NCBI RefSeq assembly: GCF_012767755.2 | Contig: NZ_AP023189.1 | Coordinates: 5,334,001-5,398,000, forward strand | Length of the DNA: 64,000 nucleotides | Source of the DNA: Pseudomonas tohonis | GTDB lineage: Bacteria > Pseudomonadota > Gammaproteobacteria > Pseudomonadales > Pseudomonadaceae | Direction of reading: 5' to 3' | Shown here: piece after piece, positions 48,237-51,634 of the stretch | How positions within the stretch are numbered: the first letter of the stretch is position 1 | How the letters are laid out: the number at the start of each line of letters is the position of its first letter | Notes under the pieces: model-generated | Seen by the model: only the letters and a program-made list of their open reading frames with translations | Database searches by the model: none | What the model was told of the DNA's origin: nothing | Made by a program: the position numbers and the translations under genes

Positions 48237-48389
48237 CGACGGGCACGGGGCCACCCGAGCCCGGCGCCGCCATACAACTCCCCTTACAGACGCCGCCTGG
48301 GCCGTGCGGCGCATTTTTGCTAAGGTCCGCCAGCTCCGGAGGCCCGCCGCAACGGCCGGCCCGATCACACCGCTGACATGGAGCCGCAT

Positions 48390-49673
48390 ATGCCCCACGA
48401 GCTGGCAACCTGGATGGACTGGCTGAAGGGCCACCCCGAACTCCTCACCCTCTGCGCCTCCACCCTGCTGGTGCTGGGCGCCTGGCTGGCCAACTGGATG
48501 GTCAAGCGCATCCTCGTGCGCGGGCTCTATCGCCTGGTCGCCACCGGCCTCAACGGCGGTGCGAAGCTGCAGGACCACGGCCTGATCAAGCGCCTGGCCA
48601 ACGTGGTGCCGGCCCTGGTGCTGGCGAGCGGGGTCAAGGTCATCCCGGGCCTGCCGACGTCCCTGGTGACGGTGGTCACCAATGTCTGCGCCGCCTTCAT
48701 CATCCTCACCCTCGCACTGGCCCTGAGCGCGGTGCTGGATATCGTCAACGGCCTCTACCAGCGCCGCCCCGATGCCCACCTGCGGCCGATCAAGGGCTAC
48801 CTGCAGGTGCTGAAGATCGCCGTGTTCGCCATCGCCGCCATCCTCATGGTGGCCAGCCTGATCGACCGCTCGCCGCTGATCCTGCTCTCCGGCCTCGGCG
48901 CCATGGCCGCGGTGCTGATGCTGATCTTCCAGGACACCCTGCTGTCACTGGTGGCCAGCGTGCAGATCACCTCCAACGACATCATCCGCGTCGGCGACTG
49001 GGTGGAGATGCCCCAGCTCAACGCCGACGGCGACGTGATCGACATCGCCCTGCACACGGTGAAGGTGCAGAACTGGGACAAGACCATCACCACCATCCCC
49101 ACCAAGCGCTTCATCACCGACTCGTTCAAGAACTGGCGCGGCATGCAGGAATCCGGCGGCCGACGCATCAAGCGCAGCCTGTTCCTCGACCAGAACAGCG
49201 TGCACTTCCTCGATGCCGACGACCTGGCCCGGCTGCACCGCTTCCGCCTGCTCGACGGCTACCTCAAGGCCAAGGAAAGCGAGCTGCTCAGCTGGAACGC
49301 GCAACTGGACGAATCCAGCCGCCTGCCGATCAACAGCCGCCAGCTGACCAACATCGGCACCTTCCGCGCCTACGTGGAGAACTACCTGCGCCACAGCGGC
49401 GACATCCGCCAGGACATGACCCTGCTGGTGCGGCAGATGGCGCCCACCGCCGACGGCCTGCCGCTGGAGCTCTACTGCTTCACCAACACCACCGCCTGGG
49501 CGCGCTACGAGGCCATCCAGTCGGACATCTTCGACCACCTGCTGGCGATCCTCCCGGAGTTCGGCCTGCGCGTGTTCCAGCACCCGAGCGGAGCCGACAT
49601 GCGCGAGCTGCGGCTGCCCGCGCAATCGCCACAGGCCACGCCCGCCGCAGCCTTCGACCACTCGTCGGGCTGA
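48390..49673 (+). CDS. MscS-family mechanosensitive channel (YbdG-like)
   Basis: A 427-residue membrane protein close in length to E. coli YbdG. It has about five hydrophobic helices, the last amphipathic pore helix before QITSNDIIRVGDWVEMP, the MscS beta domain and a long C-terminal region. The family opens under osmotic downshock. The ATG at 48390 is chosen because GGAG lies 8 bases upstream; the ATG at 48378 has no site. It is followed by the proteolytic flagellin gene. Confidence 0.88.
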   Translation: MPHELATWMDWLKGHPELLTLCASTLLVLGAWLANWMVKRILVRGLYRLVATGLNGGAKLQDHGLIKRLANVVPALVLASGVKVIPGLPTSLVTVVTNVCAAFIILTLALALSAVLDIVNGLYQRRPDAHLRPIKGYLQVLKIAVFAIAAILMVASLIDRSPLILLSGLGAMAAVLMLIFQDTLLSLVASVQITSNDIIRVGDWVEMPQLNADGDVIDIALHTVKVQNWDKTITTIPTKRFITDSFKNWRGMQESGGRRIKRSLFLDQNSVHFLDADDLARLHRFRLLDGYLKAKESELLSWNAQLDESSRLPINSRQLTNIGTFRAYVENYLRHSGDIRQDMTLLVRQMAPTADGLPLELYCFTNTTAWARYEAIQSDIFDHLLAILPEFGLRVFQHPSGADMRELRLPAQSPQATPAAAFDHSSG

Positions 49674-49686
49674 AACCGCAGCGGCA

Positions 49687-49711
49687 TCAAGAAGCCAGTA
49701 CGCCCGCCGAT
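49687..49711 (+). promoter_or_regulatory. Candidate sigma-28 (FliA) promoter for the proteolytic flagellin
   Basis: TCAAG (49687-49691), a spacer of exactly 14 bases, then GCCGAT (49706-49711). This is the class-3 flagellin promoter pattern (TCAAG-N14-GCCGATA in Pseudomonas; TAAAG-N14-GCCGATAA in E. coli). It lies 45 bases before the flagellin ATG. Confidence 0.7.
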
Positions 49712-49721
49712 GCAGTGTCGA

Positions 49722-49738
49722 TACCGGAATTTCCGGTA
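49722..49738 (+). promoter_or_regulatory. 17-base palindrome in the flagellin leader
   Basis: TACCGGAA-T-TTCCGGTA is a perfect palindrome with an 8-bp arm. It lies just downstream of the predicted transcription start and 18 bases before the ATG. It could be an operator or an RNA hairpin that covers the 5' end of the transcript. Confidence 0.45.
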
Positions 49739-49756: not shown

Positions 49757-51427
49757 ATGCTGACGGTCAATACCAACATCGCCTCCTCGTTCACGCGAAG
49801 ACAGTTGAGCACCACGGACAATGCACTGGGCAAGACCTTGCAGCGTCTGTCGACCGGCCAGCGCATCAACAGCGCCAAGGACGACGCCGCCGGCCTGCAG
49901 ATCTCCAATGCCCTGACATCCCAGGTGCGCGGGCTCAACGTCGCCACGCGGAACGCGAATGACGGCATGTCGATGCTGCAGGTGGGGGAAGGTGCGCTGC
50001 AAAGCGTGACGTCCGCGCTGCAGCGCATCCGCACGCTCGGCCTGCAGGCCATGAACGGCTCCAACTCCGAGACCGACCGCGCCGCACTGAACCAGGAGGC
50101 GCAGAAGCTCCTGGAGGAGATCAACCGGGTCAACGAGACCACCACCTTCGGCGGCCGCAAGATCTTCAGCCAGGACAGCGGCTCGCAGCTGGGCAAGCTC
50201 GACGAGCGCGCGGTGCTCAATTCGCTCAAGGGCTTCTGGATCAGCGAGGGCGAGCAGCGCGTCTTCGACGCCTACGGGATCAAGGCCGACGGCGCCACGC
50301 TGAAGATCACCCTGAGCAACGACCCGTCCAGCACCACCCTGGCCTCGGTCGCAGGCTCCCCCGGCGCCGGTGGCAAGTACTACAACCAGGTGCTCGACGT
50401 GAACATGGCCTACTTCGATGGGTCGAGCCTGCCCAACGGCGGCAACAACCCCGGCCAGTACACCGACCGCGTCCTCGCCCACGAGATGACCCACGCGGTG
50501 ATGGGCCGGGCGATGAACTTCAATGCCCTGCCCGGCTGGTTCAAGGAAGGCACGGCGGAGGCGGTGCAGGGTGCCGACGAGCGCCTGCGCAGCGACATCG
50601 CCGCCAGCAGCATCGGCGCGGTGGTCGGTGCCTTCGGCGGCATCGGCAGCAGCGCCGGCTATTCCGCCTCCTACGCCGCGGTGCGCTACATGCACGCGGA
50701 GATCAAGGCGGCCGGCGGCAACGGCATCAAGGACGTGATGCAGTACCTGGCCGGCCACGCCAACTCCACCCTCGACGACGCCCTGGCCAACGCCAGCCAT
50801 GGCGCCTTCGCCAGCGCCGCCGACTTCGGCACCCAGTTCTCCGCCAATGGCGCGGCCTTCATCGCCGGGATGGACCTGACCAACGAGGACACCGGCGCCA
50901 TCGGCGGCTTCGATGCCGACGGCGGCGATGTGCTCACCGCCGAGGACGTGTTGCCCAACCGCGGCACCGGCACGCCCGGCTCCCTGGGCTTCAAGCTGGA
51001 AGAGCCCAAGCTGTTCGATGCCAACGCCACCGGTGGAGGCGTGCAGACCTCGCTGCAGGTCGGCGCCAACGCCTGGGAAACCATCGACGTCGGCCTCGCC
51101 TCCTTCAACACCGGGGCGATGGCGCTGAACAACGTCAACCTGATCAAGACCCCCGGCCTCGCGGTGATGGACATCGACGACGCCCTCGCCTACGTGGACC
51201 GCCAGCGCGCGTACATGGGCGCCATCCAGAACCGCCTCGACAACACGGTCAGCAACCTGCAGAACATCTCCGAGAACGCCAGCGCCAGCCGCTCGCGCAT
51301 CACCGATGCCGACTTCGCCGCCGAATCGGCCACCCTCGCCTCGAAGCAGATCCTCCGGCAGGCAGCGCAGAGCATGCTGGTGCAGGCCAACCAGATGCCC
51401 CAGGCCGTTCTCTCGCTCCTGGGCTGA
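49757..51427 (+). CDS. Flagellin with embedded HExxH metallopeptidase (flagellinolysin type)
   Basis: A 556-residue flagellin. The conserved N-terminal D0-D1 part (1 to about 145: MLTVNTNIASSFTRRQLS, LSTGQRINSAKDDAAGLQI) and C-terminal D1-D0 part (about 429-556: LQVGANAWETI, RAYMGAIQNRLDNT, ASRSRITDADFAAE, ANQMPQAVLSLLG) are complete. The variable middle (about 146-428) is a peptidase domain with HEMTH (His242, Glu243, His246) and a third zinc ligand candidate Glu264 in WFKEGTAEAVQG, the same EG-xA-E context seen in collagenase-like M9-type enzymes. Known flagellinolysins form filaments with thousands of active proteases. No stop or frameshift is seen. The ATG is preceded by GAGAGACAGG, with a sigma-28-like promoter upstream. 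No flagellar gene lies nearby. Confidence 0.92.
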   Translation: MLTVNTNIASSFTRRQLSTTDNALGKTLQRLSTGQRINSAKDDAAGLQISNALTSQVRGLNVATRNANDGMSMLQVGEGALQSVTSALQRIRTLGLQAMNGSNSETDRAALNQEAQKLLEEINRVNETTTFGGRKIFSQDSGSQLGKLDERAVLNSLKGFWISEGEQRVFDAYGIKADGATLKITLSNDPSSTTLASVAGSPGAGGKYYNQVLDVNMAYFDGSSLPNGGNNPGQYTDRVLAHEMTHAVMGRAMNFNALPGWFKEGTAEAVQGADERLRSDIAASSIGAVVGAFGGIGSSAGYSASYAAVRYMHAEIKAAGGNGIKDVMQYLAGHANSTLDDALANASHGAFASAADFGTQFSANGAAFIAGMDLTNEDTGAIGGFDADGGDVLTAEDVLPNRGTGTPGSLGFKLEEPKLFDANATGGGVQTSLQVGANAWETIDVGLASFNTGAMALNNVNLIKTPGLAVMDIDDALAYVDRQRAYMGAIQNRLDNTVSNLQNISENASASRSRITDADFAAESATLASKQILRQAAQSMLVQANQMPQAVLSLLG

Positions 51428-51556: not shown

Positions 51557-51634
51557 ATGAAAGCCTCTCACACCCTCATCCTCCTGCGTCAACACGCCTG
51601 CCTACGCCTGGTCAGCCCACGACTGCGTAGCTGA
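51557..51634 (+). CDS. Leucine-rich leader peptide for leuA
   Basis: A 25-residue peptide (26 codons with the stop) ends 77 bases before leuA. Six of 25 residues are Leu (CTC, CTC, CTG, CTA, CTG, CTG), clustered as LILLR and CLRLV; Ile and Val are also present. One codon is CTA, rare in such a GC-rich genome. AGGG lies 8 bases upstream of the ATG. Inside, CTACGC (51602-51607) pairs with GCGTAG (51625-51630) and overlaps the stop region. This looks like a translational attenuator that senses leucine supply. No U-tract terminator is evident, so the mechanism is open. Confidence 0.6.

Follow-up and report, generated by a model that had tools for sequence, protein, structure and literature searches.

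The window analysed here, a stretch of 64,000 nucleotides (nt) from contig NZ_AP023189.1 of Pseudomonas tohonis (positions 5,334,001 to 5,398,000, forward strand), carries a gene for a flagellin into which a metallopeptidase domain is inserted, an arrangement known as flagellinolysin. An earlier interpretation made from the letters alone (the sequence-only reading) had described an intact, stop-free gene for such a protein between mscS and leuA, and the same arrangement was found here, with an mscS-like gene upstream and leuA downstream, both neighbours being named from sequence alone. The open reading frame (ORF) runs uninterrupted from an ATG start to give a product of 556 amino acids (aa) with no internal stops; a GTG at 49715 is a possible alternative start, but homology begins at the ATG.

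The gene, its product and the inserted peptidase

The features of the coding region, all on the plus strand, are as follows.

49757..51427, +: flagellinolysin (flagellin with inserted metallopeptidase), 556 aa; ORF and NF033876 match, 409 bits against a cut-off of 205
49766..50173, +: N-terminal flagellin D0-D1, residues 4-139; PF00669 (Flagellin_N), E 9.1e-41
50183..50956, +: inserted gluzincin-like metallopeptidase domain, residues 143-400 as modelled
50480..50494, +: HEMTH zinc-binding and catalytic motif (His242, Glu243, His246); the three residues invariant, 53/53
50546..50548, +: Glu264, predicted third zinc ligand, in the helix that follows the one bearing HExxH; invariant, 53/53
51173..51421, +: C-terminal flagellin D1-D0, residues 473-555; PF00700 (Flagellin_C), E 4.3e-25

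The flagellin domains proposed for both ends of the protein were thus each matched by the corresponding Pfam profile, and a search with the NCBIfam flagellinolysin equivalog NF033876 aligned the full model (1-384) to residues 111-487, the excised insert by itself scoring 302 bits. The nearest named records were from P. alcaligenes MRY13-0052 (97% identity over the flagellinolysin protein) and P. otitidis (83%). Taken with the invariant catalytic residues and the fold model described below, the equivalog match establishes that the window gene is a genuine flagellinolysin, a member of a family published in 2017 and 2020 (PMC5595980, PMC7643111).

The residue numbers given in the sequence-only reading were correct: HEMTH begins at residue 242 and WFKEGTAE at residue 261, making Glu264 the first glutamate of the latter. 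In an alignment of 53 proteins chosen out of 241 relatives, H242, E243, H246, E264, A267 and E268 were identical in every row, and the insert accordingly holds the HExxH motif, the distal Glu (E264) and the basement Ala (A267). Since structure searches with the full-length model returned only flagellin-type rows, the insert was modelled alone, yielding a structure (predicted local distance difference test, pLDDT, 92.7) that resembles gluzincin peptidases, a fold related to collagenase peptidase domains. Given this fold, the model makes it likely that His242, His246 and Glu264 converge on one zinc. When the sequence of the insert was searched by itself against solved structures, two rows came up at E <= 1, both irrelevant. 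The insert is M9-like in fold only: the Pfam profile for peptidase M9 (collagenase), PF01752, did not match the window protein even at E <= 1, though it matched 44 of the 53 aligned relatives at E <= 0.01.

Column 216 of the alignment holds Asp in 35 rows, Glu in three and Asn in 15, the window protein included. Among the 18 rows formed by the window protein and homologues from the first search, 14 have Asn216 and four (P0114, P0118, P0120 and P0121) have Asp; the only Asn216 among the remaining 35 rows is that of P0204. As judged from spacing, without alignment to the Clostridium haemolyticum flagellinolysin FliA(H), this column probably corresponds to Asp206 of that protein, a calcium-site residue near the active site (PMC5595980).

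The upstream region and the principal flagellin

Two features were recorded between the mscS-like gene and the flagellinolysin start codon.

49687..49711, +: sigma28 (FliA)-type promoter, -35 TCAAG, 14-nt spacer, -10 GCCGAT; pattern match, conserved in orthologues
49722..49738, +: possible hairpin in the 5' untranslated region, 7-bp stem and 3-nt loop; similar position in 17/20 distinct upstreams

The sequence TCAAG-N14-GCCGAT begins 70 nt before the ATG and is the single match on both strands of the window to TNAAG-N13-15-GCCGA[TA]; the pattern T[CT]AAG-N14-GCCGA gave three matches on the plus strand and none on the minus strand. These patterns follow the sigma28 consensus, which agrees with the promoter of the genome's own fliC, TAAAG-N14-GCCGAT. 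Within the whole genome TNAAG-N14-GCCGAT occurred 63 times as against 24 for a reversed control, showing that the motif alone is unspecific, and the argument therefore rests on its conservation among orthologues. For that comparison, the 32 available upstreams (the window plus 31 loci) were reduced to 20 distinct sequences, used for both promoter and hairpin counts, by leaving out 12 repeats (L005, L006, L007, L023, L063, L066, L068, L070, L072, L073, L074 and L075), of which L023 repeats a kept upstream with one change; L065 lay outside the promoter set. A first, narrower pattern matched 23 of the 31 orthologue upstreams. Widened to T[CT][AC]AG-N14-GCCGA, a change to the -35 box made only after viewing the upstreams that the narrower pattern had missed, it matched all 20 distinct upstreams with a spacing of exactly 14 nt, starting 62-78 nt before the start codon; the widened pattern turned up in 78 of 10,872 overlapping windows of 90 nt drawn from 12 loci, a figure that counts the true sites. 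Six more distant flagellinolysin loci were also inspected, and in two of the four for which a start could be located a similar motif was present under a looser pattern.

The conserved motif fits control of flagellinolysin by FliA, and suggests, on these sequence grounds, an orphan flagellin wired into flagellar control as opposed to a stray insertion. A duplicate flagellin of P. kilonensis is nearly silent and has a poorly conserved sigma28-type promoter (PMC9927476); set against that weak promoter, the good sigma28-type motif found here argues for expression.

The best hairpin stem lay 10-12 nt past the -10 box in 17 of the 20 distinct upstreams, its arms varying between species. The fraction of shuffled sequences reaching the same stem length ranged from 0.02 to 0.98, and exceeded 0.05 in 19 of the 20.

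The sequence-only reading had also regarded the protein as a possible second flagellin encoded away from the flagellar genes, and a search for the principal fliC bore this out. In the 6.83 Mb genome, a single contig, Flagellin_N was matched three times: by the window gene, by FliC (L001, 488 aa) and by a protein of 434 aa (L003) resembling FlgL, the last named from sequence. The fliC gene lies at about 4371 kb, with a FliS gene ~3.5 kb from it, and flagellinolysin at 5384 kb, ~1.0 Mb away. The window protein shares 65% identity with this FliC over residues 2-137 at the N-terminus and 58% over residues 450-555 at the C-terminus, values consistent with a capacity of the two proteins to co-assemble. 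The further claim of a protease on every subunit proved too strong: because the genome has a separate fliC, a mixed filament is to be expected, as shown for C. haemolyticum (PMC5595980).

Chromosomal slot, distribution and selection

Matches to flagellinolysin above the family cut-off came from four genomes out of 18 for the genus and from 19 out of 398 for the family, a total that includes the four; a class-wide draw yielded seven of 369 genomes, the subject genome among them, and an eighth match that scored too low. Of the 19 family positives, 18 have flagellinolysin adjoining one or more genes of the xseA-M23-mscS-leuA region, L062 (genome G042) being the sole positive outside the leuA slot. 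The placing of mscS relative to flagellinolysin varies between genomes (before it, after it, or none seen); leuA is downstream in all 14 of the 40 loci that were matched through the insert (L021-L034), with mscS intervening in L033 and L034. For the 14 genus negatives, tblastn over the fetched stretch found nothing matching the gene at E <= 1e-3, and every one of these genomes has its mscS and leuA matches separated by 244-363 bp. One of them, G016, has mscS split between two contigs, with the 3' piece adjoining leuA. A search of 72,556 plasmid records found nothing at E <= 1e-60.

The four positive genomes of the genus formed one clade both in a leuA tree of 40 rows (support 99/98) and in a flagellinolysin tree of 38 rows (100/100), in the latter of which L088, labelled as a genus negative (g1neg), is in fact the mscS locus of positive genome G004, a genome therefore counted twice. 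Compared with L034, from the other main positive genus, synonymous divergence was 1.15 for flagellinolysin and 0.55-0.80 for its flanks, and flagellinolysin was the most divergent at synonymous sites of the genes found in all seven comparisons with that genus. A recent transfer between genera was considered and is unsupported, the gene showing no less synonymous divergence than its flanks; both the trees and the synonymous distances agree better with an old residence than with a recent transfer. The gene has probably long been resident at one slot near leuA, with many related species lacking it. This history may have been one old insertion followed by repeated loss, or equally gain through shared flanks.

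Simple Nei-Gojobori counts, near saturation in places, indicated that flagellinolysin is under purifying selection. The ratio of nonsynonymous to synonymous divergence (dN/dS) against the 97% orthologue of P. alcaligenes MRY13-0052 (L024) was 0.074 overall and 0.031 for the protease (residues 155-400), the corresponding values against P. otitidis being 0.22 and 0.19, and the protease was the most constrained part of the protein in these two comparisons and in that with L007. In the comparisons with P. anguilliseptica (dN/dS 0.17 for the whole gene and 0.20 for the protease) and P. guguanensis (0.32 and 0.38), constraint was stronger on the flagellin ends than on the protease.

Two further observations concern the neighbouring genes. 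The mscS-like gene (48378-49673, plus strand) is 86% identical to its L024 counterpart, as against 97-98% for xseA, M23, flagellinolysin and leuA, which suggests that it was replaced separately from its neighbours. Upstream of leuA there is a 25-codon ORF (51557-51634, plus strand); with few changes it also precedes leuA in the 14 genus negatives and in six of the 12 positive loci scanned, and it may encode a leader peptide. Rfam gave no match at gathering score anywhere in the window, this ORF included, and a literature search confined to titles returned nothing resembling it.

Proposed role, alternatives and known systems

The interpretation that we hold with considerable, though not complete, assurance is that the gene specifies an accessory flagellin with an active-looking gluzincin zinc protease, co-expressed with fliC under FliA and forming a minor subunit of the filament, both activity and incorporation being inferred. 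On completion of the hook, FliA would switch on flagellinolysin together with fliC; the subunit would then be exported via the flagellar secretion channel, and its D0-D1 domains would co-polymerise with FliC into a mixed filament along which a protease of broad specificity could be displayed, so placed as to digest, in a zinc-dependent manner, whichever proteins the flagellum touches. The surface-degrading role previously suggested for the flagellum is a plausible hypothesis. A wider proposal is more tentative, and in our estimation has rather less than an even chance of being correct: that in several Pseudomonadaceae clades the flagellar regulon has long included the protease-bearing minor flagellin as a FliA-controlled part, maintained at one orphan slot and giving mixed filaments dosed with enzyme, and that in the main Pseudomonas clade the enzyme, having lost the calcium-site acid, no longer depends on calcium.

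Of the competing explanations, the one deserving most attention, albeit an unlikely one, is that the subunit, once exported through the flagellar channel, works chiefly as a soluble secreted protease, or sheds its outer domain, and does not persist as a stable part of the filament; this option was named by the authors of the Hylemonella gracilis study, where a shift of 1-2 kDa was read as self-cleavage (PMC7643111). That the gene is the relic of an accessory flagellin, either silent or without activity in the manner of P. kilonensis fliC-2, would accord with the near-silence of that duplicate (PMC9927476) and with a sparse distribution in which 14 of 18 genus genomes have no match above the cut-off and only 19 of 398 family genomes are positive. 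However, the intact frame, a protease-domain dN/dS of 0.03-0.19 against three genus orthologues, promoter boxes kept though the spacer drifts, and invariant catalytic residues combine to make it very improbable, and a pseudogene was rejected on the profile, invariance, selection and promoter evidence.

An ordinary flagellin with an HExxH acquired by chance might also be envisaged, the motif being short and flagellin variable regions diverse, but the match to the whole length of the profile, with double the score of the curated cut-off, the invariance of E264, A267 and E268, and the gluzincin-like model refute this explanation, to which we attach a negligible probability.

If the accessory-flagellin interpretation is true, the biological role of flagellinolysin, whether in nutrition, biofilm or competition, becomes testable: provided that the orthologue behaves as predicted, an aerobic relative of the well-developed Pseudomonas models would be at hand, in which the gene could be removed while the main flagellin is left as it is. 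Biochemical characterisation, as of 2020, extended to only two flagellinolysins, whose role in the living cell was left open (PMC7643111).

For one of these, that of C. haemolyticum, filament incorporation and protease activity have both been published, the proteolytic flagellin being the second most abundant protein of a mixed filament (PMC5595980). Like FliA(H), the window protein has flagellin ends, an inserted gluzincin with HExxH, distal Glu and basement Ala, and a place as second flagellin beside a structural one (PMC5595980). By way of contrast, the clostridial gene lies in a flagellar cluster (PMC7643111) and that of the window is an orphan near leuA, and the calcium-site Asp206 of FliA(H) is probably replaced, judging by spacing, by Asn216. 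A parallel in setting is HgrFlaMP of H. gracilis, also from a Gram-negative organism, encoded by an orphan gene off the flagellar genes and of the same domain layout, whose neighbours include NUDIX and MarR genes (PMC7643111) where those of the window gene are xseA, M23, mscS and leuA. Its outer domain degraded casein and a flagellin, the full-length protein having only minor activity on casein (PMC7643111); a promoter analysis was not found in the available portions of that article. The clostridial collagenases (M9), the M30 lugdulysin and the M1 aminopeptidases differ from the window protein in having no flagellin domains.

A conserved orphan slot, a sigma28-type promoter and an altered calcium-site residue were not found described in the portions of the flagellinolysin literature consulted, and no title in the literature search concerned a Pseudomonas flagellinolysin; Pseudomonas may be represented among the 86 sequences listed in 2017. 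Some relatives (P0054, P0116) are annotated merely as flagellin. Since others in Pseudomonas have already been named flagellinolysin by NCBI, the presence of the family there is already known: the publicly named Pseudomonadaceae proteins P0003 ('MULTISPECIES [Pseudomonadaceae]'), P0064 (P. anguilliseptica) and P0097 (Ectopseudomonas guguanensis) share 66-83% identity with the window protein over the insert and are orthologues differing in nothing essential, the P. anguilliseptica and P. guguanensis loci occupying the same chromosomal slot as the gene described here.
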